A stretch of DNA of 62,370 bases from NCBI GenBank assembly GCA_019429125.1, contig JAHYJO010000006.1, forward strand, positions 1 through 62,370. The letters run 5' to 3'. A program made the position numbers and the translations under genes. Shown here piece by piece: positions 20,805 through 62,066 of this stretch; positions within the stretch are counted from its first letter, which is position 1, and every line of letters begins with the position of its first letter. The DNA is from Nanobdellati archaeon. Lineage in GTDB: Archaea; EX4484-52; GLR71. The notes beneath the pieces were generated by a model. It was not told where the DNA came from, did no database searches, and saw only the letters and a list, made by a program, of their open reading frames with translations.

Positions 20805-23800
20805 ATGTCTAGGTCTGTATTATTGTTTGCATTAAGCATAGTATTATCATTGTCGTTTGTTCTATATAGTCCTACAATAAGTCCTGTAATCGAAGCTACA
20901 AGTCCTAATCTTACAGTCAAAACCTATACAGGTCTGCCTTATATGAACATAAATCAAAGTGATAGGTTTCATGTGGCTTTTAGCACATCTTATATTTCCA
21001 ATAAAAATGTAACTATCTATATCTCACCAAATAACCAAACATCAACAAATAATAAACCCTATTTTTTCATAGATAATAATAGTATTGATGAGTCTTGTCA
21101 CAATTGTGACAATTGCTGGTTAAATTCAAAAACCATAAATTATTTAGATGGTAATGAATCACTCTCTGTAGTGAATATAACTTATACTCTAAATAATCCA
21201 AGCATAGGTACAGTCGTCAACATCTACTTCGATGCAACCCCTATAAACCCTCAGGCAATCCTCTACACCAACTGGACCGGACGAATAGACACCGACACCT
21301 ATTCGACTCAGAACCCATTCACAATCAGACCCCCATACCTCACAATTAATGATTTATATGCCCAATCAAGAACAGTCTACCTTGGAGATAATCTGACTCT
21401 TGCAGGATTTATGATAAACAATTCAGACAGCCCAGATTACACAGGTGACGCCTACAACATCACCGCAACAGCAGATAACACAACAACTAGTCTTGAAATC
21501 ATTTCAAACAAGACAATAGATGTAACAGATATATTACATCCTGCTGAAAATCAATTTATTCCTCCCTCTAATTGGACAATCAACGCAAAATCCTTAGGCC
21601 AATCAAACATTTCAATCACTGCAAAAGACCAGACAGGAGCCTACAATGACACAATAAATGTAACAATAAACGTAGTCAACCTGACAGTCACTCCCGGAAT
21701 ACTTGAAGAGAATCCAATACAGGGAGAACCAATCACAATAATCGCAAACATAACAGACAACGCATCTAAACTTTTTCCACCCGATATTGATTTGACCTAT
21801 GCAAACCTGACTTATCTCGCTTTAAATGAGACTTCTGGTAATTTAGAGTTATACGAATCTCAAGCATGTCTGACCGAATCTTTTGAATTAAACGAGACTT
21901 TAAGCGGGACAGACTACACAGTCTTGACCTGCAAGGTTTATATTCCAGAAAGGTCCGGGCTATATAACCTTACCATATCTGTTACTGATCAATATTTTAG
22001 TTATAATGGGACTGAAACAATACTCAAATCAAAGACAACAACCAATACCTCAAACTTCACAGTATCTTTCGGAAAGCTGAACCTGACAAAGACATTTGCG
22101 ATGATGCTTGCAGTAAATGAAACATTTGACAACCCACAAGGTTTTTGGCAATATGGTGAGGATAAAAACCCATTGTGGCAAATTGATTCAGGTATTATGA
22201 TGTATTTAAATTCTCCTAATAGTTCATCTAATGTCTTAAATCTCATAGATGCTCTTCCAGAAAGTACTGATAATTATATTGAGGTCAATATTTATATTCC
22301 TCCTAATTATAATCCACAAATTAATACACCTGTTGGAATAGTCTTTAGAAACACTTTAGATAAATATTATACATTTGGATTTAATGGTGTTATCGAGGGT
22401 GATAATTACAGTTTTACAATTATTAAATATGAAACCAAGGGTACTGTATTGAAATCACAAATAATAACTTCGGGTAATTATTATAATCCTAATTTTATAG
22501 GTAACATTTCTAAATACTCTATATATATTATTGGAAATGAATTCATAGGCTTTATAAATGATCTGGAAGTAGTAAGGGGTGTTGATGAAGATCCAATTGA
22601 ATATGGAAAAGTTGGTATTTATTCATCATATATTAATTTTTTTGACAATTTCAAAGTCTACAACATCCTTGACCCTAAAGATGCTCTTCTTCTGAACCAG
22701 ACATTCAAGATACAATCATTTGCAGAAGTTGAAGATGGTGACCTCTGGGGTCCGACAAATTACACAATTTCAAAAAGCAATTCAAAGATATCAAACCAGT
22801 CTGCCATGGGCTTTCAGAATGCATCAAATTTAACATTGGGTTCCTGGCAGATAATTAACTGGGGTGAATTTGATACAGATATTTTAGGTTACACAAATTT
22901 TACAATAGAGATCACCTCCTCAAAAGGCACAACGGCCACACAACATATAAACACGACAATAGTGCCCTTGATTGCATACATAGGTGAATCTGTAATCAAT
23001 TACAGCCATCCTAATATAAATTACATCAATGTCACCGGTTTCGGCCCCTCACTAAATGGCCCAAATGGCATGTTTTCGGTCTCAATAAAACCAGAATATT
23101 CAGAAACAGAATATACAGTAACAAATTTCACGTTTGATTCTACACTTTCAGACATAACAAACAATAATTATGTATATAGCAACAATTATACTTCCACTTA
23201 TCTGTCCGGAAACTACGACCTTGACATATCAATGAGAAACCAATACAATAAAAACATCTCAAACACGACAGAATCATTCTTTGTCAATTATGGGTATTTG
23301 AGTATTATAATACTTGCAAATCCTGGAGCAATTACATGGGGTGATTCGGCAATGCAATCAGTTGATGTATATGCATATGGTGGTGATGTAAGGAACATTA
23401 CATTAAATATGACCTCTTTGACACCGAATTATCTTGATTTATATCTTGGTGAAATATCTAATCGGACTGAAATGGCGATTTTGAATAATCAATTTAAAAC
23501 CTATACCTGGAATATTTCAGCAGCATATTCAGCAGGTTATGCAAACCTATCTGTTTCGGGGAATGCGACCTATGGCGGTAATGATACAACAAATAAATAC
23601 AATATAAATATAACTAGTGGTGTGGATACCGAAGCACCAAAAATATTAAATGTTTCATTAAAATACGACATTGTCAATCTCAAAGAAAATATGACAATTT
23701 ATGCAAAGATAACTGATGATTATGGTGTGCATACTGCAGTTACACAAATTTTCTATCCAAATCTATCTGGTTATTCAGAAAACTATACAATGACTTTTGA

Positions 23801-25973
23801 TTCTACTATAGACCTGTATTATTTCACATTCACAAACACGACAATATTGACAAATGACACAGAATCATATAATATACAGATATATGCAAATGACTCTAAA
23901 TCTCTTTTGAACGCATCAGACAACAGCACAACTTTTAACACGACAAACTACTATCATATAGACCCTAATGCATTGAACTATAACCTATTCAATTTAGGCG
24001 AATCAATGATTGCAACAATTCCAGTCCACACAATAAATAATAACACCATTACAGATTTCAATTTAACTCTTATGCTAAAAAAGTCAGGTGCTGAAAATGC
24101 CACAGTTCTTCTCCCAAACAACAAGACAGATTCTTACACTTATTACATCAATGCGTCAGACCCTACAGGACTTTACACCCTTGATATGAATGTCTCAAAA
24201 GACGGAAACACAGCAAACTTTTCTGGAAATTTCACAGTAAGCAATGTTTACACTCCTAACTTTATACAACCTACATCAAACTACCAGACTCAGCAACCAC
24301 AAGCAAATCTTTATGATTTTGCAAGTCCTTTAATAGAGGTATTTAATGCGCGAGGTGAGCTGGTACAGTCTTGGGGTGTCAATGTCTGGATAACTTGTGC
24401 GCAACCATCAAATATCTCTTTATTTATTAATGGGATTTGGCAACATTATGTAGATTCAGGCACCACAGCATGTCAGATGCCATCTTTTGAAGGACCTTTT
24501 GACATCTTAGCATTCGTACACGACACCTACAACAATTCCGGGACATCAAGCCTACAGATGAACGTGCAAGCATATGGTAGTCCTCCTCCTAGTACAGGTG
24601 GCAGCATATCACCAGGTAGTTCATTTCCTCCTTACACACCTGATTTCATACCTTACTCAAACATCTCAAATTACTCGTCCTACAACGAAAATCTAAATAT
24701 TTTTTCTTTTGAGTTAGGTATGCGCGACATAAACATGTTTCAGGGTGAAAATAGAGAGATTACAATAAATCTTAACAATGTGGGTCGTGATGACCTAAAC
24801 CTTTCTGCATCATACGAATCCAGATGCTGTTCTATTGACTTGAACGAGACCTATTTTGTAAAATCAGGTAACAATCTCGCAATATCTTTGGTAGTATCAT
24901 CAATGCTATCTGAAGAGCCCGGCACATATATTATGAAAATAAAGATTTCAAACGGTGATAAACTACAAGAACAGAATCTAAATATCCGATTAGACAAAAA
25001 TCAATTAATCAGTGATTTTGAATACATTAAAAATGATTTTAAGAGAATTAAGAACATTTTAATTGATTTGAATAGATTCGGAATTGATGTAGGACCTTAT
25101 ATGGAATTATTTGGATATTCAGAAACACTTATGTTAGCAACACAACAATCAATAATGTCAAATGATCTACAATCTTTTGACGCTCAGATTGTACAATTAT
25201 CTGCGTTATTAAATTCTCTAAATATGAATCTGACCGAAAAAGAAAATATAATATGGGTTATCAAGAACAGATATAACCTCGCAGGTCTTTTAATATCATT
25301 AATCCTATTTGTGTTTGCTCTTAAATATTATTTATTCCCTTTAATATTATTGAGCATTGAATATAAACAGTTAAAATCAAAAGAGTTCAACCTTGCAGCT
25401 GAAGAGAAATCAACCGAAAAGGAATATTTTACTCGTGTAATTGATAAGTCTACATTCAACAACATATTGACTAAAAAGCATGAACAATTGACAAATATAA
25501 GGACTCGTATGGTTCATATCCGAAAATCAATAAAACTATTGATGCATGGTCATAATGTCCCTATAGAATATTTAAATGAAACGCATAATACTGGAAAAAA
25601 ATCAAAAAATAAGTCAAAATCTATATTTGGTGCGAAACCAATAAAACTTAAGTCATTTATGGGTTTTACCAATCCTTTATCGTATCTGTCTCTCCGAAAA
25701 GAAGAAACATCCCCTACCTCAAATCAAAAAACACGTACACCCATAAATTTAGCTGAAAAGACACCTATGTATCCCAAAGGACAGAATTTTTCATCATCTC
25801 AGACTTCAACCCCTGTTATGTCTAAGACTGGAAAAAAATTATCAAAGATTGGGAAAAACAAGAATCTAGGTGATGAAATGCGCGAGATATATGGTGGCAA
25901 TCTGAAGAAAGAAGAATCAAAAGAATCATTCAATGACATAAAGAAAAAGATAAACAATATATTTGATGATTGA
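20805..25973 (+). CDS. Large membrane-anchored surface protein, paralogue of the 2857-aa protein
   Basis: 1722 residues. An N-terminal signal segment (LLFALSIVLSLSFVLY) is followed by about 1350 residues of Asn/Thr-rich beta modules with dense N-glycosylation sequons. A laminin-G/concanavalin-like stretch is possible around residues 430-620 (NETFDNPQGFWQYG, YTFGFNGVIEG, FFDNFKVYNI). A Pro/Gly/Ser linker with PPPSTGGSISPGSS near 1265 leads to the part shared with the 2857-aa protein: a CC-containing domain, helical stalk, membrane segment (about 1488-1510) and tail with EKEYFTRVIDKSTFNNI. The tail then becomes basic and Ser-rich, ending in a helix. The KaiC-like ATPase gene begins 54 bases after its stop. 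Confidence 0.85.
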   Translation: MSRSVLLFALSIVLSLSFVLYSPTISPVIEATSPNLTVKTYTGLPYMNINQSDRFHVAFSTSYISNKNVTIYISPNNQTSTNNKPYFFIDNNSIDESCHNCDNCWLNSKTINYLDGNESLSVVNITYTLNNPSIGTVVNIYFDATPINPQAILYTNWTGRIDTDTYSTQNPFTIRPPYLTINDLYAQSRTVYLGDNLTLAGFMINNSDSPDYTGDAYNITATADNTTTSLEIISNKTIDVTDILHPAENQFIPPSNWTINAKSLGQSNISITAKDQTGAYNDTINVTINVVNLTVTPGILEENPIQGEPITIIANITDNASKLFPPDIDLTYANLTYLALNETSGNLELYESQACLTESFELNETLSGTDYTVLTCKVYIPERSGLYNLTISVTDQYFSYNGTETILKSKTTTNTSNFTVSFGKLNLTKTFAMMLAVNETFDNPQGFWQYGEDKNPLWQIDSGIMMYLNSPNSSSNVLNLIDALPESTDNYIEVNIYIPPNYNPQINTPVGIVFRNTLDKYYTFGFNGVIEGDNYSFTIIKYETKGTVLKSQIITSGNYYNPNFIGNISKYSIYIIGNEFIGFINDLEVVRGVDEDPIEYGKVGIYSSYINFFDNFKVYNILDPKDALLLNQTFKIQSFAEVEDGDLWGPTNYTISKSNSKISNQSAMGFQNASNLTLGSWQIINWGEFDTDILGYTNFTIEITSSKGTTATQHINTTIVPLIAYIGESVINYSHPNINYINVTGFGPSLNGPNGMFSVSIKPEYSETEYTVTNFTFDSTLSDITNNNYVYSNNYTSTYLSGNYDLDISMRNQYNKNISNTTESFFVNYGYLSIIILANPGAITWGDSAMQSVDVYAYGGDVRNITLNMTSLTPNYLDLYLGEISNRTEMAILNNQFKTYTWNISAAYSAGYANLSVSGNATYGGNDTTNKYNINITSGVDTEAPKILNVSLKYDIVNLKENMTIYAKITDDYGVHTAVTQIFYPNLSGYSENYTMTFDSTIDLYYFTFTNTTILTNDTESYNIQIYANDSKSLLNASDNSTTFNTTNYYHIDPNALNYNLFNLGESMIATIPVHTINNNTITDFNLTLMLKKSGAENATVLLPNNKTDSYTYYINASDPTGLYTLDMNVSKDGNTANFSGNFTVSNVYTPNFIQPTSNYQTQQPQANLYDFASPLIEVFNARGELVQSWGVNVWITCAQPSNISLFINGIWQHYVDSGTTACQMPSFEGPFDILAFVHDTYNNSGTSSLQMNVQAYGSPPPSTGGSISPGSSFPPYTPDFIPYSNISNYSSYNENLNIFSFELGMRDINMFQGENREITINLNNVGRDDLNLSASYESRCCSIDLNETYFVKSGNNLAISLVVSSMLSEEPGTYIMKIKISNGDKLQEQNLNIRLDKNQLISDFEYIKNDFKRIKNILIDLNRFGIDVGPYMELFGYSETLMLATQQSIMSNDLQSFDAQIVQLSALLNSLNMNLTEKENIIWVIKNRYNLAGLLISLILFVFALKYYLFPLILLSIEYKQLKSKEFNLAAEEKSTEKEYFTRVIDKSTFNNILTKKHEQLTNIRTRMVHIRKSIKLLMHGHNVPIEYLNETHNTGKKSKNKSKSIFGAKPIKLKSFMGFTNPLSYLSLRKEETSPTSNQKTRTPINLAEKTPMYPKGQNFSSSQTSTPVMSKTGKKLSKIGKNKNLGDEMREIYGGNLKKEESKESFNDIKKKINNIFDD

Positions 25974-53177: not shown

Positions 53178-53383
53178 GTCATTATTTGTTGAAATATTTT
53201 TAAGTTATAATTTTCTACATTACTTGCATGCTATCGATTTTACAAAAAAGGAGTAAATATTTTTTAACAAAAATTAACTACACATTTTCAAGCTGTAGCT
53301 ATTGATTTTATAAAAAGTATAATGTATGTAACTTACATCATAATGGTCGTAGCATGCCGATTATTTTTTTGCTAAACAAGTAC
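53127..53383. repeat. 13-bp inverted repeat near the truncated HEPN gene
   Basis: GTACTTGTTTAGC at 53127-53139 is exactly inverted as GCTAAACAAGTAC at 53371-53383. The right copy contains the stop codon of the HEPN gene and the left one lies in the gene fragment. It may mark a rearrangement that cut both genes. Between the copies (about 53178-53370) I see no gene, only AT-rich sequence with a related pair GCTATCGATTTTA and GCTATTGATTTTA. Confidence 0.45.
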
Positions 53384-53659
53384 GTCTGCTGTAATAATAT
53401 CTGAAAATAAATATTCTGCAATTTTCAATGAACAGTTATGATTCTTGCATTCAATTCCCATTTTTAATAACAGTGCAGTTAGTATATGGTACCTTGCATA
53501 ATATGCAACTGTAGATTTCCATTCAGTATCCTCTTTTGATATTGAACGTAAAACAACTAAATCATGTCTAGATTTTTGAAGATACGCATGTGCAAGATTA
53601 TCATTTGGTTCAATAATTCTTGCCCATTTTTTAAGACAGATATCAATAGATTTTTCCAT
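53372..53659 (-). CDS. HEPN-domain protein, C-terminally truncated
   Basis: 95 residues: NDNLAHAYLQKSRHDLVVLR, STVAYYARYHILTALLLKMG and ECKNHNCSLKIAEYLF. It is related to the complete HEPN protein at 61225-61707 (QRSEESLSSAKVLF, ALSYYSMYHCLLALLF, KCKNHTASI) but stops after about 90 residues, where the other has 60 more. HEPN proteins partner MNT nucleotidyltransferases as RNase toxins or their neutralised targets. The RX4-6H catalytic motif is not evident. ATG at 53659 has a very good GGGAGG site and overlaps the end of the HTH-MNT gene by 17 bases, so translation is coupled. The truncation coincides with an inverted repeat. Confidence 0.75.
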   Translation of the reverse strand: MEKSIDICLKKWARIIEPNDNLAHAYLQKSRHDLVVLRSISKEDTEWKSTVAYYARYHILTALLLKMGIECKNHNCSLKIAEYLFSDIITADVLV

Positions 53660-54224
53660 AATTGACCTCCCACAATATATCAACAAATGTTTCTGTATTT
53701 TTTAAGCATATATGATCTTTTACAATTTCAGAAATTAGAGGGTCTTTTTGAAAAAATCCATTTATGAATTCATCCGATTTCATATATATTGCCTGGATAT
53801 TTTTTCCAGTCTCCTTTTCAAATCTTTCAAAATCATATTTTTCATCTGATATTATAAGCAAATCTATATCACTATCTTTTCGTTCTGTACCTTTAGCATA
53901 TGACCCAAAAATAATAACAGTTGAGGTCATATCTAAATATTTTATAAGAGTTGATATAATTCTCTTGTTTAAAATTGCCATGCGCATCGTATTCTCAGCA
54001 TTGATTACTTTTAATTTGGTGAGCTGGTTCTTGGAATTAAGAAAATATATTTTCTGTCGTCCTGAAATTTTTGAATCCAATAACCTTTCATTTTCCATAA
54101 CTTTTAATGTTTCGGACACAGTCTGTCTGTTTATACTGGTAACTATTGCTATTTCTCTCACATACATTTTAATGCTATAGTCTGGGAGGAATGCTTGAAG
54201 TATTGTGTTAACATTGTCTGACAT
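53643..54224 (-). CDS. HTH-MNT nucleotidyltransferase (antitoxin-like), copy 1
   Basis: 193 residues. An N-terminal winged-helix domain (VREIAIVTSINRQTVSETLKV, then LLDSKISGRQKIYFL as the wing) is joined to a minimal nucleotidyltransferase with VIIFGSYAKGTERKDSDIDL. The GS and D-X-D metal site is intact. MNT antitoxins of the MntA kind AMPylate their HEPN partner; here the HTH suggests that the same protein also represses its own operon. The start codon lies inside the palindrome TGACATATGTCA. The HEPN gene follows with a 17-base overlap. The second copy of this arrangement is at 60711-61707. Confidence 0.85.
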   Translation of the reverse strand: MSDNVNTILQAFLPDYSIKMYVREIAIVTSINRQTVSETLKVMENERLLDSKISGRQKIYFLNSKNQLTKLKVINAENTMRMAILNKRIISTLIKYLDMTSTVIIFGSYAKGTERKDSDIDLLIISDEKYDFERFEKETGKNIQAIYMKSDEFINGFFQKDPLISEIVKDHICLKNTETFVDILWEVNYGKIY

Positions 54225-54343: not shown

Positions 54344-54994
54344 TTATTTCAAAAACACACCAGTGATTCCTTCCATGTTCTGTGATTGCGCATCCTCAAG
54401 TGTTGCATCACCTACGAATATGTTTGCGTCATTGCCACCAATTCTGAATCTTTCAGTATCATTGTCATAGACAGTGTCTACATAGATACCTGGTTTATAT
54501 TCATTGGAGAAATCATATTGTTTGAAATTCTGATATGTTGAACCCCAGATTATGTTTATAGGATTTGCTAACATATTACGAAAATCTTCATCCACAAATA
54601 CATTTATTTCCATAATGTCATCTTTAATTGTAGGGACTATGTATGCTTCTGGTATTTCATTTTTTGAATCCATGTTAGGTGTGATACGCAATAGTACAAA
54701 TGTTTCATTTTCTTCAGTTTGGAATATTACTTCATTTAAAAACATATGTCCTTTTAAGATACCCATATGTTCAAACTTGACTTTGTAAAGACCATCATTG
54801 TATTGCATGCTTGCAGCATTGTCTTCATATCCGTCGCCGTCAGTGACTTCACTGACATTTATTGATGGATTGTAAGTTTCTGTGTTATTATCATTTGTGT
54901 GAAACGAAAGGCCCATAATAATCAGTATAACTATTATCAGACCTATAATTATATGTTTTTTATTCATATTCTGAATATATTTTTTAGTATCCAT
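54344..54994 (-). CDS. Membrane-anchored extracellular hypothetical protein
   Basis: 216 residues. After a short basic start comes one membrane segment (HIIIGLIIVILIIMGLSF), then an Asp/Asn-rich, beta-type extracellular domain (YKVKFEHMGILKGHMFLNE, EIPEAYIVPTIKDDIMEIN, ERFRIGGNDANIFVGDATL). No family is recognised. ATG at 54994 is preferred over one at 55021 that overlaps the upstream gene. It is the last gene of the minus-strand run of pilin-like genes and probably part of the same apparatus. It has no prepilin-type K-G cleavage site, unlike its neighbours. Confidence 0.6.
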   Translation of the reverse strand: MDTKKYIQNMNKKHIIIGLIIVILIIMGLSFHTNDNNTETYNPSINVSEVTDGDGYEDNAASMQYNDGLYKVKFEHMGILKGHMFLNEVIFQTEENETFVLLRITPNMDSKNEIPEAYIVPTIKDDIMEINVFVDEDFRNMLANPINIIWGSTYQNFKQYDFSNEYKPGIYVDTVYDNDTERFRIGGNDANIFVGDATLEDAQSQNMEGITGVFLK

Positions 54995-55005
54995 AATAAT
55001 CAACT

Positions 55006-57651
55006 TTATCTCTGTGGCCATGCAGACATTTTATCTACATGGTACGAAACACCTTCATAAATCATACCACTTGCGAAAATAAGTACAGGTACAACAACAC
55101 CTGATGCATAAAACGTTAATCCTGTAATAATTGTATCTGCTACGGCAAGTGTTATCATTGTTGTACCTTTTAAAGTTCCACTAAGAACATCAACACTATT
55201 AAAGCAATAATTTGTACCCTCAAAAGTTTTATCCAATTCTACAGATACAGTCAATGAATCTATATTATCTTTTGTTTTCATAGCCCATGGATTATAAAAT
55301 ACTGAAGGTCTTTCGGTCAATTGAACACATTTTTTAATACCATTACCTTCTGCATCCATATATAATGGTATAATATTAAGAGTGGTTGTAAGTCCATTAT
55401 TATAATCCAACGCATTCTGTGCCTGTATATTAAATTCTTCTGTCTTAACTTCTTCTTGTGTATCTAGGCGATAATATGTTTCAGCACCTTCAATTTCTAC
55501 CGTATTTGACCAACCAGCATATTCATTACCCTCCGGTCTGTAGTTTGTACTAATTCCATTTCGCACATCAATAGTTCTTATGATTGGGTTGTCAGTATAA
55601 ATTGATTCGTCTGTATCACTTCTAGCATATGCCCCCTGGCATTTTGATGATAATGGTGGATTAATCCCTGTCTCAACAAAACATATATTATTATCTGTTT
55701 CTTTTACATCAAAAGTCGCACTATCTCGATCATATTGGAATTCACCAATGATTTCAATTTCATGTCCCATTACTGTAATAGTTTCGGGATTTTTCTCTGT
55801 TATCTCAGAATAAAGAACTTGTAAAAATCCGAGGGGTGTTGTATATAAAAACCCTCTTTTTAATACTCCACCAGTATTGTGTATTGTTGCACTTGTAACA
55901 TATTCATCATATGTGTTACAATCACTCTCAGCAGACCATTCATAGTATCCTATATCATAAGTTCCAATTGGATCTTCAACTTTTCGTCCACAACAGACAG
56001 CTTGTTCACTTTTACATTCAGTATAATAACAACCAATTTGTTCATGTTTTACAATGACTTTTTCAGTCTTACATGGACTGACTAAGAAAAATCGTTTTGG
56101 ATATTGAAATGATTCTCTTTTCAAAGCTATATAATAATAATTTAGTGTATCTGCAAGTTTTTCAGTCTGGACTGCATAATAATTTTTTTTATAGCCTAGA
56201 GAATTTATTCCAATTGGATTATATTTTTCATTTGAGTTGTCTATATAAGCTGCCATAACTCCTAGTCCTGTAAAATATGAACAGGCAACAATGCCTAATG
56301 ATATTTTTTTGACAAGTATCGCACAAGTACCGAGTCCATTTATTCCATCAGCAGCTATATCATTGGGTATTGCGGGACTTAAAATATCAAGTGTTCCTAA
56401 CTGCATGACAGGGTCATTATACATTTTTGTATTAAAGAAAAATTGTGTAAATTCCTTTGTCTGTTGTAATATACTTTCTCGTTGTGCTTTAGGCATATGT
56501 TGTACAATATCATTACCTTTGGTAATTACAGTATTTATTTCTTTATTGGTCAATGATGCACCACCATCACCAATTAAATTAGAATATGTATTCCATTTTA
56601 TTATTTTTTGTAAAGGTGTTATGCTTTTTGAGACTGTACTTCCTGTAGTTACATAATGTATTAAATTTAATTGATGCAATGCAATATCATCAAGTTCTTT
56701 AGGCTTAATATTATGTCCCATTTTAGTTACTAATTCTTCTTGTAATTCAAATCTTAATTTTGCAAATGTTGTTTTTCCAGCAGTTGTTTGTATTGCTTCA
56801 AATGTTTTAATCGTTGTAATCTTTGCGACATCTTCAACAATATCTTCAGCAGCTTGTAGTGTTAGTCCTTCTACATCAACTAATCTTTTTGTAATCTTTA
56901 ATTCTTTTGTGATATACTTATCACTTATGTCAAATATGTTCTTGAATGCTAGTAATCCTGCTTGTTTATTTCGGAATGTTTTTAAAGTAAAAATTCCAAC
57001 TGTTTTTGCAATATTGTCATCTAGAGTTTTATATAAACTTTTTGCAATTGATATTTGTGGTACTAATTTTGTAGCTCTATCTCCTATGCTTACAACACCT
57101 TTTGATATACCTTTACCAATACCTTTACCTACAACTGGAACAACATTGAAAACTCCACCAACAATGGCTCCAGCCCAGCTGAAATCTTCAATTCTAACTT
57201 GCCAGTCTGCAGCTTGATCTTCTGGGAATGCTTCATAATAAACAATACAATTTGGGTCGCCCATACCCGTAATCCATCCTGCAGGGTCACTTTCATCATA
57301 CTCTGGATTTTTTGTCAACTCAAATCCTTGGACTTCACAATTATAATTTTCACCACTACCATAACATGCAGCAACTTTTGTCCCGAACAATTTCTGTGGT
57401 GGACATAATTCAGTTACATCAATACCTGCATGGTGCATACCTGTGCAGTTGAGTGCATAAGCTAAAGCCTGTATAGAATTAACAGAATTAGTATCACAAC
57501 CCGATGTCAGCTTTGGAAACATAAAATTATTAAGCGCATTAAACAATGGCTGACCAATATCTGATGTCACAAACATGATACCTGCGCCTAAGATAACAAG
57601 ACCTATAATTAAGTTAGCGACCAATAGTAACATACCTTTTTTATTTCTCAT
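55006..57651 (-). CDS. 881-aa protein with prepilin-like N-terminus
   Basis: A very large protein with a pilin-type start: MRNKKG, then MLLLVANLIIGLVILGAGIM, which fits a class III signal peptide cut after KKG. A Cys-bearing region (SGCDTNSVNS, ALNCTGMHHAG, CYGSGENYNC) comes next. Residues 190-330 are helical and Lys-rich (VSIGDRATKLVPQISIAKS, LRFELQEELVTKMGHN). Two further hydrophobic segments lie near 455-475 (CAILVKKISLGIVACSYFTG) and near the C-terminus (TIITGLTFYASGVVVPVLIF). A Cys cluster (CKTEKVIV, GCYYTECKSEQAVCCG) lies around 530-560. Normal archaeal pilins have 100-200 residues, so the size is odd. Family unknown; possibly a tip or scaffold subunit. Confidence 0.65.
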   Translation of the reverse strand: MRNKKGMLLLVANLIIGLVILGAGIMFVTSDIGQPLFNALNNFMFPKLTSGCDTNSVNSIQALAYALNCTGMHHAGIDVTELCPPQKLFGTKVAACYGSGENYNCEVQGFELTKNPEYDESDPAGWITGMGDPNCIVYYEAFPEDQAADWQVRIEDFSWAGAIVGGVFNVVPVVGKGIGKGISKGVVSIGDRATKLVPQISIAKSLYKTLDDNIAKTVGIFTLKTFRNKQAGLLAFKNIFDISDKYITKELKITKRLVDVEGLTLQAAEDIVEDVAKITTIKTFEAIQTTAGKTTFAKLRFELQEELVTKMGHNIKPKELDDIALHQLNLIHYVTTGSTVSKSITPLQKIIKWNTYSNLIGDGGASLTNKEINTVITKGNDIVQHMPKAQRESILQQTKEFTQFFFNTKMYNDPVMQLGTLDILSPAIPNDIAADGINGLGTCAILVKKISLGIVACSYFTGLGVMAAYIDNSNEKYNPIGINSLGYKKNYYAVQTEKLADTLNYYYIALKRESFQYPKRFFLVSPCKTEKVIVKHEQIGCYYTECKSEQAVCCGRKVEDPIGTYDIGYYEWSAESDCNTYDEYVTSATIHNTGGVLKRGFLYTTPLGFLQVLYSEITEKNPETITVMGHEIEIIGEFQYDRDSATFDVKETDNNICFVETGINPPLSSKCQGAYARSDTDESIYTDNPIIRTIDVRNGISTNYRPEGNEYAGWSNTVEIEGAETYYRLDTQEEVKTEEFNIQAQNALDYNNGLTTTLNIIPLYMDAEGNGIKKCVQLTERPSVFYNPWAMKTKDNIDSLTVSVELDKTFEGTNYCFNSVDVLSGTLKGTTMITLAVADTIITGLTFYASGVVVPVLIFASGMIYEGVSYHVDKMSAWPQR

Positions 57652-57679
57652 GCACTCATCAACTAATTGTATCTCTGAT

Positions 57680-57814
57680 CATATATCATTTATTATGTCT
57701 TATCTTCATATATCATTTATTATGTCTTATCTTCATATATCATTTATTATGTCTTACCTTCATATATCATTTATTATGTCTTATCTTCATATATCATTTA
57801 TTATGTCTTATCTT
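57680..57814 (-). repeat. Five tandem copies of a 27-bp repeat forming mini-ORFs
   Basis: CATATATCATTTATTATGTC plus TTATCTT is repeated five times (57680-57706, -57733, -57760, -57787, -57814); only the third copy has a base change (TACCTT). The stop codon of the gene at 57801-58988 lies in the last copy, so its final codons EDKT are part of the unit. On the minus strand each unit reads ATG, then IYEDKT, then TAATAA, then the next ATG. The array thus is a chain of seven-codon ORFs with stop and start two codons apart, ending 29 bases before the 881-aa gene. Confidence 0.9.
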
Positions 57815-58988
57815 CAATTACTATTATTATATCATCGGGATCAAGAATAACAGCTAGTCCATAATATCTCTCTTCAAAATAATAGAATGGTTGGATTTCA
57901 TATATATAATCTTTAAATAATTTATGAGATTCACTATTTTCCATACCACTTTGATTAATCATCACTCTATCTTTTATGATATATAGACATTTTGTACCTC
58001 CTGAATTTTTTCTTGTCCATGTTACACTATTGAATTCATCTGGGGCAATATCATCTTCTGCAGCATTTAAAAGATCACATGTGGAGAATTTATAACTGAA
58101 TGTACTTATTAAACTGAACCATTCATATAAATTTGCGTCTACATCTGGTTTAATCCTAAACTTATTAGGGCATGCAAAATAACCATTATAATCAACATTA
58201 TTTGCATAGCCACCCATAAATTTGTCTTCAAAATTGGTTGAACAAGTATCTATGTCTGAAACTATTATTGTTTTCGCATTATCATCACTTTCACCGCTAA
58301 GATCTACAATATTTGGTAGACTGTAATCCAATCCACCCGAATCAGTCTCATCCCGACAGATATTATTATCGTTAAGTCTTCCTTTGCTTTGTGAAAATTT
58401 AGCAATGTTAGAGTTCCCTAATGGGTTATACCAACTGATATCACTTCCACCTATGCAGTAATCCTCTCGTTTATAAAAATACAATGTATTCTGACTTGAT
58501 CCTAATTTTCCCGATACCCAAGTCCATGTAGAACTAAATACACCATTTGCGTTACATGTTGCTTTATCATCCCACCAAAAAACCCAATCAATACGTGTTA
58601 CTGTACCTGTACCACTACTTGAATAATACCCACCTAAACAATCATCAGTCTCTTTTTCACCAAATGTATTCATCGCATCAGTTATATTACTATAAATGTC
58701 TTCATATGTTATTGTTCCAGTATCAAGTTTCTGTTTTAACCAGCACGCTTTTTTACCATTCCATGCAACCTTTGTAGCTAATTGTATATTTTTTATAAAA
58801 GTGTCAGCATCAACAACACCTGCATCTCCCGGACAATAAGCCCCTGGCATTGGAATATTAAAATCTCTCGCCGCATTAGTAACTTTCTTACCTAAAGACC
58901 CGCCAGTCATCATAACTGCAGCAAGAACTATAACAAACACTAGTATAACCTGTATCATTGTTATATTCCCGCGCCGTTTCATAAACAT
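57801..58988 (-). CDS. 395-aa protein with prepilin-like N-terminus
   Basis: The start MKRRG is followed by NITMIQVILVFVIVLAAVMM, a class III signal peptide and pilin hydrophobic helix. The body is Cys- and Trp-containing (GAYCPGDAG, WNGKKACWLKQKL, DDCLGGYYSSSG, WVFWWDDKATCNANGVF, FACPNKFRIKPD) and looks like an extracellular disulfide-bonded domain. Its last helix-strand part reads YYGLAVILDPDDIIIVIEDKT. The ATG directly follows the TAG of the upstream small pilin-like gene, so the two are coupled. No family recognised; probably a major pseudopilin of this cluster. Confidence 0.65.
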   Translation of the reverse strand: MFMKRRGNITMIQVILVFVIVLAAVMMTGGSLGKKVTNAARDFNIPMPGAYCPGDAGVVDADTFIKNIQLATKVAWNGKKACWLKQKLDTGTITYEDIYSNITDAMNTFGEKETDDCLGGYYSSSGTGTVTRIDWVFWWDDKATCNANGVFSSTWTWVSGKLGSSQNTLYFYKREDYCIGGSDISWYNPLGNSNIAKFSQSKGRLNDNNICRDETDSGGLDYSLPNIVDLSGESDDNAKTIIVSDIDTCSTNFEDKFMGGYANNVDYNGYFACPNKFRIKPDVDANLYEWFSLISTFSYKFSTCDLLNAAEDDIAPDEFNSVTWTRKNSGGTKCLYIIKDRVMINQSGMENSESHKLFKDYIYEIQPFYYFEERYYGLAVILDPDDIIIVIEDKT

Positions 58989-59180
58989 CTAACCTGAAAA
59001 CACATTCTTAATCATCATGGGCACAAAACCGACCCCATAATTTCCGAATTTTCTAGCTGCATAAGTTGCAGCAACAATCAATATTGAAAATGCTAAAAGC
59101 CCCATACATATCTTGATGATAAGTTCAAGGTCCATTGCGCCTTTCCGACTCTTGATAAGATAATATGTAATTTCTAACAT
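58989..59180 (-). CDS. Small prepilin-like protein, 63 aa
   Basis: The N-terminus MLEITYYLIKSRKG has a basic end and a Gly cleavage site, followed by AMDLELIIKICMGLLAFSIL with Glu at the fifth residue or so after the cut, as in typical archaeal pilins. A short tail (YAARKFGNYGVGFVPMMIKN) completes it. CGGTGAACAGATG gives a good ribosome site. The downstream gene starts immediately after its stop. Its size and place suggest a core fibre subunit or a minor pseudopilin. Confidence 0.65.
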   Translation of the reverse strand: MLEITYYLIKSRKGAMDLELIIKICMGLLAFSILIVAATYAARKFGNYGVGFVPMMIKNVFSG

Positions 59181-59198
59181 CTGTTCACCGTTAAAATA

Positions 59199-59702
59199 TT
59201 AAGGACTTGTTGGTCCTGCACATGTCTTTGTGAGTCCTGCCCCACTACCTACAACTTGACAGCATTGATTATCATTACTAGTATCAAGCACCAGCCACCA
59301 TAGTCTACCTTCAGGCCCACTTTTTGTTTTTGGGTCATACTTAAATGCTGCCATTGTGCATTCAACAGGACTACATTTACTGATATCACCTACACATTGT
59401 TCTGATATGCAAGCATGAAGTTCATTAGGTTTTAAAATGTCATATTCAGGATATAAAGTACAATACATCTCATTACCACATTTGTTCTTACAATTTTCAG
59501 TATTGCAGGTACCAACAATACATTCAACACCAGTATCGCTTATGCAAGGGTCAACAAATGATATACAACATTGTCCCTGATTATCATAATCACATACTTG
59601 TTCAGTCTTCATATTCATGAAATTGATAAGCATAAATCCAATTATCATTACAAGAAACAGCGACATTATAACATAAAAGATTGAAAGTCCACTGCGCCTC
59701 AT
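59199..59702 (-). CDS. Cysteine-rich prepilin-like protein, 167 aa
   Basis: ATG at 59702 gives MRRSG, then LSIFYVIMSLFLVMIIGFML, a prepilin-like start. The exposed part holds about 18 cysteines (VCDYDNQGQCCISF, GVECIVGTCNTENCKNKC, CISEQCVGDISKCSPVEC, NQCCQVVGSG), so many disulfides or metal sites are expected. It ends in CAGPTSP. It heads the minus-strand pilin run and is divergent from the pilin-like gene at 59798; the frame upstream to 59762 is less likely because it would put 20 basic residues before the signal. Confidence 0.65.
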   Translation of the reverse strand: MRRSGLSIFYVIMSLFLVMIIGFMLINFMNMKTEQVCDYDNQGQCCISFVDPCISDTGVECIVGTCNTENCKNKCGNEMYCTLYPEYDILKPNELHACISEQCVGDISKCSPVECTMAAFKYDPKTKSGPEGRLWWLVLDTSNDNQCCQVVGSGAGLTKTCAGPTSP

Positions 59703-59797
59703 ACTATATTGTTGTATTCTTGCGTATATAACATTTTTGCATCTTTTTTTTGAAAATCTCAAATAAATATATTAATGCTATATACCAAATCATAATC

Positions 59798-59986
59798 ATG
59801 TTCGTCTATCCTTATGTTGAAACGTTAAATAGAGTCCGAAAAGGTCAAGATATAGGGATATCAAAAATTGCAGCATTAGTGCTCGTGTTTGCAGGTATTC
59901 TTGTATTCATTGCAGTCTTATATACTATGATGGCAAAAGGTAAAGGTGTAATAGATATAATAGATCCGTTAGCATACAGTAATTGA
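59798..59986 (+). CDS. Small prepilin-like protein, 62 aa
   Basis: Starts MFVYPYVETLNRVRKG, with the cleavage Gly after basic residues, and continues QDIGISKIAALVLVFAGILV and a short tail MAKGKGVIDIIDPLAYSN. It is the first gene of the plus-strand half of the pilin-like cluster, followed after 13 bases by the gene at 60000. It lacks cysteine, unlike the next two. The ATG at 59798 is chosen over an upstream one because it leaves room for the divergent promoters. Confidence 0.6.
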   Translation: MFVYPYVETLNRVRKGQDIGISKIAALVLVFAGILVFIAVLYTMMAKGKGVIDIIDPLAYSN

Positions 59987-59999
59987 AGGTGTAATAAAT

Positions 60000-60266
60000 A
60001 TGAGAAAAGGAATGACAATCGCAATAACTCTTGTAATGGCAATGCTTGTAGCCTTAGTTGTGGCATTTGTCTTGATATCAATGTTTAGCACATCAATGAA
60101 CAAAGGTGGTGCTGGGTTGACCGGTTCTTTAGATTCTACAACTGATGATGTAACAGGTCTTGCATGCAGTACTCATTGCGCAACTTGCTGTATTACTAAT
60201 GTTAAGTCTTATTGTGAAAATACAGGTAACGGTGCGCCTGCCGGTTGTAAATGTAATAATTGTTAG
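60000..60266 (+). CDS. Mini-pilin with CX3CX2CC motif, 88 aa
   Basis: MRKG is followed by MTIAITLVMAMLVALVVAFV, a very short class III signal with its pilin helix. A Gly/Ser/Thr spacer (NKGGAGLTGSLDSTTDD) leads to the cysteine motif CSTHCATCC, further single Cys residues, and a C-X-C-X2-C end (CKCNNC). The motif recurs in the proteins at 60276 and 61767. AAGGTG supplies the ribosome site. It could be a surface filament subunit with disulfides or a bound metal cluster. Confidence 0.7.
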   Translation: MRKGMTIAITLVMAMLVALVVAFVLISMFSTSMNKGGAGLTGSLDSTTDDVTGLACSTHCATCCITNVKSYCENTGNGAPAGCKCNNC

Positions 60267-60275
60267 TTGATTTTT

Positions 60276-60521
60276 ATGCGAAAAGCTATGACACAATCAA
60301 TATCTCTTATAACTGTCATAGTGGTAGGTCTTTTTGTTGTAGCAATTCTAATTGTCATGGTCGGCGACAAGATGGGTAAGGCATCTGATGTAATTGGTCA
60401 AAATACAGATATCACAGAAGATAGCCTAGAATGCAAGACTGAATGTTCTGCCTGTTGTGCGACTGGTTATGGTGGTACTATCTGTGCGCGCCAGTTCATA
60501 GCCTGTGATTGTAGTTGTTGA
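60276..60521 (+). CDS. Mini-pilin with CX3CX2CC motif, 81 aa
   Basis: MRKA is followed by MTQSISLITVIVVGLFVVAI; Ala takes the place of Gly at the expected cleavage point, which some prepilin peptidases accept. The exposed part carries CKTECSACC and ends in CDCSC. It starts nine bases after the stop of its sister gene, so the two are co-translated. The TTG at 60267 would overlap the previous stop region and is less likely. About 190 AT-rich bases follow without a gene before HTH-MNT copy 2. Confidence 0.7.
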   Translation: MRKAMTQSISLITVIVVGLFVVAILIVMVGDKMGKASDVIGQNTDITEDSLECKTECSACCATGYGGTICARQFIACDCSC

Positions 60522-60690
60522 CAGATATTTTAGAATTTATATAATTATTTTTTAATATAGCTCTTATTGATTCTACTACATAGGGTATTTAATTATTGTT
60601 TAGTTACCTCTGTAGGTGGTTCCAAACATATTTAGGGGACTTGTTGTAATATATTAATATAATTGTGCAATCATAAATATTTATAAAGTA

Positions 60691-60716
60691 TTGTCACAAT
60701 AATATGACATATGTCA
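60691..60716 (+). promoter_or_regulatory. Operator of HTH-MNT copy 2
   Basis: TGACATATGTCA (60705-60716) spans the start codon at 60711, exactly as in copy 1. A half site TTGTCACAAT (60691-60700) precedes it. The gene begins only inside the palindrome, so a bound repressor would also block translation initiation or early elongation of transcription. Confidence 0.65.
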
Positions 60717-61259
60717 CGAATAAATTACAATAATGAAATAATAGGATGCCTCCTAATAAAACCAAATCACATACGAGGGCTTGCAAAAGACTTAAACACC
60801 AATCAGACTACAATATCACGAAAAATCCAGGATCTTTATGAACAAAACATTGTTGATTTTAGATTTGAGGGAAAAAATAAGGTATTTTTCCTAAAAAAGA
60901 CACTTGAAGCCTGTGAATCAGTTTTGATTGTAGAGCGTCATAAGTTAATTGATATATTACAGCTGTATCCGCACTTAAGACGAATTATAGAGATAATAAA
61001 ATCCGATAGAAGAATCAATATGGCTGTAATATTTGGGTCTTATGCAAAACATAGTGCAACAAAAACAAGTGATATTGACCTTTATGTGGATACTGAAGAT
61101 AGAATACTGAAAGAGATATTATCTGATATAGATTCAAAATTAAGCATAAAAATCGGGAAATATGACAAAGCAAATCTTCTCATAAAAGAGATTGAAAAAG
61201 ATCATATAATTATAAAGGGTGTAGATGAATTTTATGAAAAAAACAAATTTTTTGAGTAA
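60711..61259 (+). CDS. HTH-MNT nucleotidyltransferase (antitoxin-like), copy 2
   Basis: 182 residues built like copy 1. A winged-helix DNA-binding domain (RGLAKDLNTNQTTISRKIQD, wing FRFEGKNKVFFL) is fused to an MNT domain with AVIFGSYAKHSATKTSDIDL. The GS and D-X-D ligands are intact, though the Gly after the YAK motif is missing (KHS versus KGT). Sequence identity with copy 1 looks low outside motifs, so this is an old duplication or two independent arrivals. It overlaps the HEPN gene by 35 bases. Confidence 0.85.
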   Translation: MSRINYNNEIIGCLLIKPNHIRGLAKDLNTNQTTISRKIQDLYEQNIVDFRFEGKNKVFFLKKTLEACESVLIVERHKLIDILQLYPHLRRIIEIIKSDRRINMAVIFGSYAKHSATKTSDIDLYVDTEDRILKEILSDIDSKLSIKIGKYDKANLLIKEIEKDHIIIKGVDEFYEKNKFFE

Positions 61260-61707
61260 GTTATTTGATGAAAAAAAGATTCAGTTTGTTACACCTAGTA
61301 AAGACATAAAAAATGCTTATATTCAAAGATCTGAGGAATCATTATCTTCTGCAAAAGTACTATTCAAAATAGGGAATCTCAAAGATTCAGTTGCCTTATC
61401 GTATTATTCTATGTATCATTGTCTTCTTGCTTTATTATTTTGTACGGGTATAAAATGCAAAAATCACACTGCCTCAATACTAATTTTAAAAGAAGTGTTC
61501 GGATTAAATAATGATAGTATTTCAAAAGCGAAAAAAGAGAGAATTGATAAGCAGTATTATGTGGACTTTAATATTACTCAGGCTGAAGTTTATGATACTA
61601 TGTCTATTGCAGAGGATTTCATTACAGAATTACGAGAATTTATAGAAAAATTAAATGCGCTGGATATAAAACAGTATCAAAATATACTACAGCGTATCCT
61701 AATATAG
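61225..61707 (+). CDS. HEPN-domain protein, complete
   Basis: 160 residues. NAYIQRSEESLSSAKVLFK and DSVALSYYSMYHCLLALLFC form the first HEPN helices, then GIKCKNHTASILILKEVFG, and a last helix EVYDTMSIAEDFITELREF. The usual RX4-6H RNase motif is not present; the His in KCKNH has no Arg at the right distance before it. It may be an inactive or differently acting HEPN, or the target of the MNT enzyme. Conserved Tyr residues (SYYSMYH) are possible AMPylation sites. The start overlaps the end of the MNT gene, giving coupled translation. Confidence 0.8.
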   Translation: MNFMKKTNFLSKLFDEKKIQFVTPSKDIKNAYIQRSEESLSSAKVLFKIGNLKDSVALSYYSMYHCLLALLFCTGIKCKNHTASILILKEVFGLNNDSISKAKKERIDKQYYVDFNITQAEVYDTMSIAEDFITELREFIEKLNALDIKQYQNILQRILI

Positions 61708-61766
61708 TTTTCATCTCACAAAATTATATATAATCTGCGCAATAAAAGAAAGTTACAGTGTTTACA

Positions 61767-62066
61767 ATGGCATTCTCAAAGACACAAAAAAAGGGTGAAA
61801 TGACAATTGAGACAGTCATAATCATAGTCTTATTTCTTGCAATATTAGCAATTATAATATTAGTTGTCAGTTCATTGACAGGTAAAGGTTCAGATTCCAT
61901 GGGGACGACTATTGAGAGTACAGGCAGTGGCGCACTCTGCGAGATAGAATGTATGAAGTGTTGTAGTGGTCAAGTAAATATTAATTGTAATCAGTATATT
62001 ATAGATTCTAATTATGGTTCTTGTTGTGTTGATACAAAAACGGGTGAGGAGGAATATGGTTGTTAA
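61767..62066 (+). CDS. Mini-pilin with CX3CX2CC motif, 99 aa
   Basis: MAFSKTQKKG is followed by EMTIETVIIIVLFLAILAII; the Glu after the cut and the long helix are typical of archaeal prepilins. After a Gly/Ser spacer comes CEIECMKCC, then INCNQYIIDSNYGSCCVDT and a final Cys. It shares the cysteine motif with the proteins at 60000 and 60276, though it lies on the far side of the HTH-MNT/HEPN pair. ATG at 61767 is preferred over a GTG at 61758. Confidence 0.7.
   Translation: MAFSKTQKKGEMTIETVIIIVLFLAILAIIILVVSSLTGKGSDSMGTTIESTGSGALCEIECMKCCSGQVNINCNQYIIDSNYGSCCVDTKTGEEEYGC

Follow-up and report, generated by a model that had tools for sequence, protein, structure and literature searches.

Results

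Gene content of the locus

The window, by which we mean the whole analysed stretch of 62,370 nucleotides from a Nanobdellati archaeon, contains one half of an island of ~18 prepilins, and the other half is found on contig C4 (the island contigs of this genome are C17 and C4). A sequence-only reading had described eight prepilin-like proteins here, and all eight open reading frames were recovered at their starts (57651, 58988, 59180 and 59702 on the minus strand; 59798, 60000, 60276 and 61767 on the plus strand). The features are as follows, with a slash separating leader from helix.

54344–55021, minus strand: 225-aa single-TM protein, which closes the minus-strand run and shares 16 bp with the 881-aa gene
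55006–57651, minus strand: 881-aa giant prepilin (KKG/MLLLVANLIIGLVIL), 18 ectodomain Cys
57679–57816, no strand: tandem repeat with a 27-bp unit, 5.1 copies, between the 881-aa and 395-aa genes
57801–58988, minus strand: 395-aa prepilin-like protein (KRRG/NITMIQVILVF), 10 Cys
58989–59180, minus strand: 63-aa prepilin (RKG/AMDLELIIKICMG), ectodomain nearly absent
59199–59702, minus strand: 167-aa prepilin (RRSG/LSIFYVIMSLF), 16 Cys
59703–59797, no strand: divergent intergenic region of 95 bp, common to the runs on both strands
59798–59986, plus strand: 62-aa prepilin (RKG/QDIGISKIAALVLV), without Cys
60000–60266, plus strand: 88-aa mini-pilin (RKG/MTIAITLV...), 8 Cys (CSTHCATCC...CKCNNC)
60276–60521, plus strand: 81-aa mini-pilin (RKA/MTQSISLI...), 8 Cys (CKTECSACC...CDCSC)
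60711–61707, plus strand: MNT nucleotidyltransferase and HEPN pair, an insert between mini-pilins
61767–62066, plus strand: 99-aa mini-pilin (KKG/EMTIETVIIIVL), 8 Cys (CEIECMKCC...CC...C)

An alignment of four genomes revealed conserved TATA-like boxes facing both ways in the divergent intergenic region. The divergent eight-gene layout was kept in genomes G001, G005 and G006, and in G001 and G006 a second prepilin block adjoins it. The 63-aa prepilin was 76–95% identical within the genus. The 225-aa protein is also genus-conserved (orthologues in G001 and G006, E < 1e-124); it has KKH before its helix and is therefore not a prepilin. The MNT/HEPN pair is outside the filament system, and relatives carry other inserts. 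Across the genus the island is flanked by IleRS and ProRS, which were recognised by eye. Viral contigs contained no relative of the island proteins, and plasmids yielded no match to the 881-aa protein. Given these two results and the IleRS–ProRS location, a mobile or viral origin of the island was set aside.

Prepilin N-termini and selection

We scored prepilin N-termini with our own hand-written sequence rule, K/R-[G/A/S] directly before the helix. By this rule, 12 of the 15 island proteins with an N-terminal TM segment carried the motif, versus 3/31 elsewhere in the genome (Fisher p = 4e-6), and one of those three control proteins was itself a fourth mini-pilin. Prepilin-like genes concentrate in the island, whose proteins show the class III signal as we defined it: a short basic leader, K/R-[G/A/S], and a helix directly after. 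The enrichment supports the prepilin-like N-termini that had been proposed from the sequence. Glu at +5 of the mature helix was clear in only one of the three window mini-pilins, the 99-aa protein (G/EMTIE); this residue is not universal among archaeal type IV filament subunits.

Values of dN/dS against same-genus orthologues were 0.07–0.35 for most of the eight genes, 0.4–0.5 for the 99-aa protein and 0.2–0.6 for the 881-aa protein. All values were <1, and all eight genes are under purifying selection. Together with the N-terminal enrichment and the excess of the CX3CX2CC motif over shuffled sequences (below), these values indicated that the cluster is not a product of chance.

Scans of the window proteins against Pfam, NCBIfam and PHROGs returned nothing over the cut-off, pilin families included, and PDB sequence profiles gave no credible match to island proteins. 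The AlphaFold model of a mini-pilin (pLDDT 63.6) was reliable in the N-terminal helix only; that of the 395-aa protein had a pLDDT of 50.5, with Foldseek matches only at E ≥ 2.7. We make no claim of fold because of these low-confidence models and Foldseek values. A pilin fold is without support from any Pfam, NCBIfam, PHROGs or PDB relative.

The mini-pilin family and its cysteines

The motifs CSTHCATCC, CKTECSACC and CEIECMKCC were all present in the mini-pilins, as were the C-terminal Cys clusters of the 88-aa (CKCNNC) and 81-aa (CDCSC) proteins. Each window mini-pilin contains exactly eight Cys in the pattern CX3CX2CC...C...C-X-C(or CC)...C, and all eight are invariant within the genus. Among phylum prepilins we counted 28 occurrences of CX3CX2CC, versus 0.2 expected from shuffles. 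The sequence-only reading would have fallen had these proteins been found only here, with no conserved neighbourhood. A profile search of relatives matched mini-pilins in 34/34 phylum genomes (E ≤ 1e-3), and their neighbourhood was conserved, so that the family is neither private to this genome nor without a genomic context. The fourth mini-pilin is on contig C12, and a fifth lies at the end of contig C4, where its gene is cut off. In genome G007, five small subunit genes stand in tandem.

Complete Cys conservation extended to the larger proteins: 8/8 in the mini-pilins, 16/16 in the 167-aa protein (4 orthologues), 10/10 in the 395-aa protein (5 homologues) and 18/18 in the 881-aa protein. These residues were kept while identity dropped to 23–45% in the most distant pairs. 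The number of ectodomain Cys was even in 134 proteins and odd in 7 (39:5 by family, p = 7e-8), compared with 77:61 in soluble control proteins. CXXC was not enriched in phylum prepilins, and a single CXXCH occurred in all prepilins against a shuffled mean of 0.4.

These results separated two possibilities that the sequence-only reading had offered together, namely subunits carrying disulphides or metal. Even parity and complete conservation, without CXXCH enrichment, favour disulphides over metal or electron transfer, and the mini-pilins are probably clamped by disulphide bonds. Neither metal binding nor electron transfer was supported: CXXC was not enriched, and the single CXXCH among the prepilins is not the set of haem-binding motifs expected of a multihaem filament. 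VKOR was sought and not found, which counts against the disulphide-clamped filament proposed below; the only candidate recovered was a tandem DsbA-like protein carrying CPYG motifs.

The large prepilins

The 881-aa protein has a hypervariable middle (alignment columns ~151–450) and further hydrophobic segments that are unusual for a pilin. Homologues were found in G019, G023, G029 and the outgroup genome G139. We propose that it is a tip or adhesin-like subunit, and that the 395-aa protein is a large minor subunit. The contig C4 part of the island encodes another large protein, of 1441 aa.

Candidate motors and peptidases

No motor gene was found within or beside the window's part of the island. 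Assembly by genes elsewhere, as had been anticipated, agreed with the presence on other contigs of several T2SSE/T2SSF pairs (secretion ATPase and platform) and of prepilin peptidases, one on C15 (PF01478, 31.4 bits, over the cut-off) and a second on C25 (below the cut-off).

Contig C7 carries a divergent pair, an ATPase of 756 aa and a platform of 727 aa. In the outgroup genome G139, from another archaeal family, one gene run holds an ATPase (E 1e-261) and a platform (E 6e-137) of the C7 type; after these come a colinear homologue (962 aa, E 1e-8) of the 881-aa protein, a mini-pilin of 103 aa and a further six prepilin-like genes. In G007 the island and a C7-type ATPase share one 39-kb contig; C7-type ATPases occur in 28/34 phylum genomes, and other prepilins are co-located with this motor type in f2 and f6 genomes. 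From the outgroup synteny, we infer that the C7 ATPase and platform are most likely the island's motor. C32-type and C25-type motors are alternatives, each based on one contig: a related mini-pilin adjoins the former in G004, and mini-pilin relatives lie near the latter in G236. An orphan motor on C14 was also considered as the cognate motor. Its platform is confined to this archaeal family (8/9 genomes, none elsewhere) and the island type is phylum-wide, which ranked it below C7.

Discussion

We consider it likely that the ~18 prepilins with class III signals together make up the subunits of a type IV filament, either a pilus or a short pseudopilus, of this ultra-small, DPANN-like archaeon, with the C7 motor the likeliest to drive it. 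The earlier reading of this DNA was supported in its prepilins, conserved neighbourhood, outside assembly and disulphides, and was not supported in its metal and electron transfer. In this predicted filament, the short basic leader would be cut off by a prepilin peptidase and the hydrophobic helices would pack to form the core. The main subunits would be the tandemly duplicated 81–99-aa mini-pilins, in whose ectodomain (~45 residues) a clamp of four disulphides may take the place of a large beta-sheet domain. Minor or priming roles may fall to the 62-, 63-, 167- and 395-aa proteins and to those of contig C4. At the tip, touching other cells, we would place the giant 881-aa protein, rich in Cys and with a fast-evolving middle, and the 1441-aa protein on C4, and the C7 ATPase/platform pair would most likely power the filament. 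Cell attachment is the likeliest role to be predicted for it, and host contact is plausible.

A more specific reading, which we advance tentatively and with slightly more doubt than conviction, is that the phylum has an extra, dedicated type IV filament. In it, a C7-type ATPase/platform would work with the orphan island, whose ~18 prepilins would be disulphide-bonded and would include the eight-Cys mini-pilins as its main subunits and giant tip proteins of hypervariable sequence. The filament would attach to partner cells and would be additional to two loci like the published DPANN ones.

Alternatively, the island could build a short periplasmic-like pseudopilus, a piston like that of type II secretion, which exports Cys-rich proteins without a long surface pilus. 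So many diverse minor-type prepilins, some very large, resemble a pseudopilin set rather than a simple archaeal pilus, and a large secreted protein neighbours the island in relatives; however, the five tandem small subunits of G007 resemble major pilins and we identified no conserved secreted substrate, so that we regard this outcome as unlikely. A competence-like pilus that supplies nucleotide salvage is less probable again: pili were suggested as a route of DNA uptake in DPANN archaea (PMC9563170), and bacterial type IV filaments serve this purpose, but inspection of the island-locus gene tables showed no competence genes. We think it very improbable that these are ordinary small signal-anchored membrane proteins which resemble prepilins and never assemble. 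Their sole mark is the N-terminal motif, with no fold or family match, but against this stand the enrichment of that motif, the prepilin peptidase in the genome, and two gene neighbourhoods: in G139 such proteins are encoded together with an ATPase and platform, and in f2 and f6 genomes that motor type is co-located with other prepilins. Lastly, eight Cys in ~35 residues would be enough for metal clusters, but the strong bias to even Cys numbers, seen in families and proteins of different sizes, and the unenriched CXXC and CXXCH make metal or iron–sulphur centres in an electron-conducting filament, as first suggested, barely credible.

For a DPANN-like phylum, the island names a conserved set of concrete candidate subunits, marked by eight invariant Cys and accompanied by a likely motor. 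In related Nanohaloarchaeota, pilus motors were reported but 'no pilins were annotated' (PMC9563170), and a 2016 study remarked on ATPases of nanoarchaea that lack cognate pilins (PMC4858521); if the reading of an extra system is true, it would supply the missing pilins for DPANN motors reported without any. DPANN host attachment becomes testable through named genes, and structural work is offered a very small, putatively disulphide-stabilised filament subunit.

Comparison with known systems

Bacterial type II secretion and type IV pilus systems pair a small major subunit with several larger minor ones and a large protein at the tip, all with prepilin leaders. The island, with the subunit roles proposed above, resembles these sets in each respect, but differs from them in its ~18 different prepilins, Cys-rich ectodomains and archaeal motor.

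Among archaeal type IV pili, those of Clade 1 also have very small (~70-aa), multi-copy major pilins (PMC4858521), but the window proteins match no Pfam or NCBIfam pilin and have eight invariant Cys. In the Thermoproteales (clades 4B, 4D, 4E and 4G), one group stands out in that nearly every component has several conserved Cys, with disulphides predicted (Makarova et al. 2016, PMC4858521). These systems share with the island their Cys-richness and their large secreted components alongside many minor ones; in contrast, they have PilA-family major pilins and Crenarchaeota hosts, and no sequence relation to them was found (no Pfam or NCBIfam match).

DPANN archaea also have type IV filament machinery in loci 1 and 2, with CpaF, TadC and FlaF/PilA or a coiled-coil protein (PMC11291902). 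In gene content, contigs C16 (thermosome, CpaF, TadC, pilins) and C32 (coiled-coil protein, CpaF, TadC) of our genome resemble these loci, but the island genes are in neither, and the C7 ATPase is only ~23–25% identical to the C16 and C32 ATPases. DPANN genomes also contain 'dark matter' islands close to FliI/TadC, whose signal-peptide proteins are unrecognisable and were predicted to be divergent pilins (Fig. 2A in Makarova et al. 2019, PMC6393860). Compared by description rather than by sequence, those islands differ in including motor genes, and the cited passages of that text mention neither eight-Cys mini-pilins nor Cys parity nor phylum-wide conservation. The island looks to belong to a type IV filament system that the papers cited here do not describe.

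Organization of the prepilin block

Within the 62-kb window, prepilin-like genes as flagged by a hand-written signal rule cluster in the final 8 kb; other flagged genes are few and encode mainly classical secreted or multi-TM proteins. All eight prepilin-like genes proposed in the sequence-only reading were found at this locus, where the block is arranged as follows:

Minus strand, in order outward from a 95-bp centre: 167-, 63-, 395- and 881-aa proteins
Minus strand, after the 881-aa gene: 225-aa single-TM protein, not a prepilin
Plus strand, right arm from the 95-bp centre: 62-, 88-, 81- and 99-aa proteins

The 95-bp intergenic centre is kept in four genomes. Because of this conservation, and because a TATA-like box faces each arm, a divergent promoter is probably common to both arms. 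Pfam and NCBIfam scans of nine block proteins gave zero matches above cut-off, a PHROGs scan of a subset gave zero matches, and a PDB search with four profiles returned no credible relative. Structure models of the 395-aa protein and of one mini-pilin (the mini-pilins being the 81-, 88- and 99-aa proteins, each with CX3CX2CC and eight cysteines) were poor in quality.

A motif-independent test started from every protein that has an N-terminal TM helix and scored whether the residue following the last K/R was G, A or S. This held for 12/15 island proteins versus 3/31 elsewhere (Fisher p = 4e-6), which supports, by a home-made signal rule, the prepilin-like N-termini claimed earlier. One of the three non-island positives was a further mini-pilin, and two of the three island failures were the 62- and 63-aa proteins, in which RKG is present but a lysine lies further on.

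A 27-bp tandem repeat (57679-57816; 5.1 copies, 98% matches) overlaps the end of the 395-aa gene as well as the spacer that separates it from the 881-aa gene. Two MNT/HEPN-type gene pairs occur at 60711-61707 and 53372-54224 (a Pfam scan covered three of their proteins, all but that of the 104-aa gene at 53372). The former lies within the island and separates the 81- and 99-aa mini-pilins. This site is an apparent hot spot for insertions: near it, relatives carry different inserts (ATPase-like genes of 422 or 466 aa).

Extent of the island

Block A, the prepilin block of the window, adjoins a second prepilin block, B, in the same-genus genomes G001 and G006. In the source genome, block B lies on contig C4 (330, 103, 67, 187, 249, 1441 and 99 aa, plus others). 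Because the window contig stops 300 bp past its last mini-pilin and C4 starts inside another, the two contigs are, judging from synteny, probably adjacent. Across the genus, the flanking genes resemble those for IleRS and ProRS. The relatives that carry names are MAGs, deposited under Candidatus Nanohaloarchaea archaeon GLR72, CSMAG_1348 and archaeon GLR71. In other phylum families, radical-SAM-like genes lie beside the prepilin island (L090:147-2802, L091:114-1508, L093:3-1076); locus L090 also encodes a small precursor-like protein whose DHCWWDHCWWDHWDHWDHWDF repeats are suggestive of a modified peptide.

The mini-pilin family

Scanning the source genome for CX3CX2CC-coding DNA gave 28 matches versus 8 when the pattern was reversed. 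Among open frames of 80+ residues, just four had a pilin-type helix: the three window mini-pilins and a further one on contig C12. A fifth mini-pilin, partial, is cut by the end of contig C4. All eight cysteines are common to 13/13 aligned mini-pilins from this genome and its genus, and identity to the first member drops to 23%. The CX3CX2CC proteins singled out in the sequence-only reading proved widespread in related genomes: a profile found members in 34/34 phylum genomes (drafts, one per species; E<=1e-3), the weaker matches covering mainly the helix. Beyond the phylum, matches at E<=1e-6 occurred in just 7 of about 200 archaeal genomes. Copy number varies, with one extra copy in G005 and a tandem run of five copies or relatives in G007, as would be typical of major pilins.

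Against nearest-genome orthologues, dN/dS was 0.07-0.35 for most block genes, as expected of real, conserved genes; the 99-aa protein gave 0.4-0.5 and the 881-aa protein 0.2-0.6. At the start of the 881-aa protein, every one of the first three 50-column blocks has 39-47 of 50 positions identical to its counterpart at locus L118, and divergence is strong at alignment columns 151-450. Such a variable middle is a pattern frequent among surface adhesins, which suggests a similar character here.

Cysteines

The parity of cysteine counts is accepted as a sign of disulphide use (PMC3177088). Of the phylum prepilins that have at least two ectodomain cysteines, 134 had even and 7 odd counts; with one prepilin per sequence cluster the split was 39 to 5 (p = 7e-8), versus 77 even and 61 odd in soluble proteins of the same loci. 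Orthologues kept every cysteine in the mini-pilins (8/8) and in the 167-aa (16/16), 395-aa (10/10) and 881-aa (18/18) proteins. In prepilins CX3C was enriched (150 vs 67), and neither CXXC (78 vs 68) nor CXXCH (1 vs 0.4) was. Thus, where disulphides or metal had been proposed, parity and full conservation argue for disulphides, and the unenriched CXXC and CXXCH argue against metal. A 641-aa membrane-anchored protein on contig C2 (L134 1084-3009), in which a pair of DsbA-like domains bears CPYG motifs, is a possible disulphide helper for the prepilins; a search for VKOR found none.

Candidate motors

The source genome has ATPase/platform pairs on contigs C14, C16, C25 and C32 and a divergent fifth pair on C7. 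Candidate genes for prepilin peptidase lie on C15 and C25. Judged by the genes they carry, C16 and C32 resemble the two DPANN pilus loci of PMC11291902. On C14 (L038 7784-10210) the ATPase is an orphan with its platform split into 188- and 220-aa genes; pilins are absent nearby, and the platform is confined to its own archaeal family. The C7 ATPase matches T2SSE (44 bits), is 23-26% identical to the other four, and has matches in 28/34 phylum genomes.

We lean towards C7 as the cognate motor of the island. The best link is a single gene run in G139, a genome outside the phylum, containing a C7-type ATPase (E 1e-261 against that of the source genome's C7), its platform counterpart, likewise of C7 type (E 6e-137), a 962-aa homologue of the 881-aa protein (E 1e-8), a 103-aa mini-pilin relative and six further prepilin-like genes. 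Away from the N-terminal helix, the two large proteins are colinear at four distinct sites (for example, WVAGFGDP..YIVYW against WITGMGDPNC.VYY). In G007 a C7-type ATPase and the island share one 39-kb contig; in genomes of families f2 and f6, C7-type ATPases are adjoined by other prepilins. Competing links come from one genome each: in G004 a C32-type ATPase, 74% identical to that of C32, lies 60 bp from a mini-pilin, and in G236 a C25-type ATPase lies near mini-pilin relatives.

Beside the C7-type ATPase are tandem multi-TM proteins (L042 3996-8468, on C7) with similar opening sequence, and a gene at the window's left end (1714-2469) looks like a relative of this family.

Proposed role and relation to known filaments

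Type IV filaments are well known. In the island's proposed filament, a prepilin peptidase would cut the leaders, hydrophobic helices would form the core and disulphide-clamped mini-pilins the shaft, minor subunits may prime or terminate the shaft, and the large variable proteins would face outward. It is possible that the island instead makes a pseudopilus or serves DNA uptake. Attachment to a partner cell, the role we predict for the filament, fits an ultra-small archaeon with variable giant subunits, and the published view of pili as mediators of DPANN-host contact (PMC11291902, PMC9563170). Separately, the window encodes giant secreted proteins at 8380-16953 (2857 aa, with a bacterial Ig-like domain) and 20805-25973 (1722 aa) whose C-terminal ends are similar.

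Divergent pilin islands in DPANN were already noted in 2019 (PMC6393860), and pilus components rich in cysteine, with predicted disulphides, are known from the archaeal Thermoproteales (PMC4858521). Set against the open-access literature, the new elements are a mini-pilin family with eight cysteines, the evidence from cysteine parity, an island found across the phylum and a candidate for its motor.
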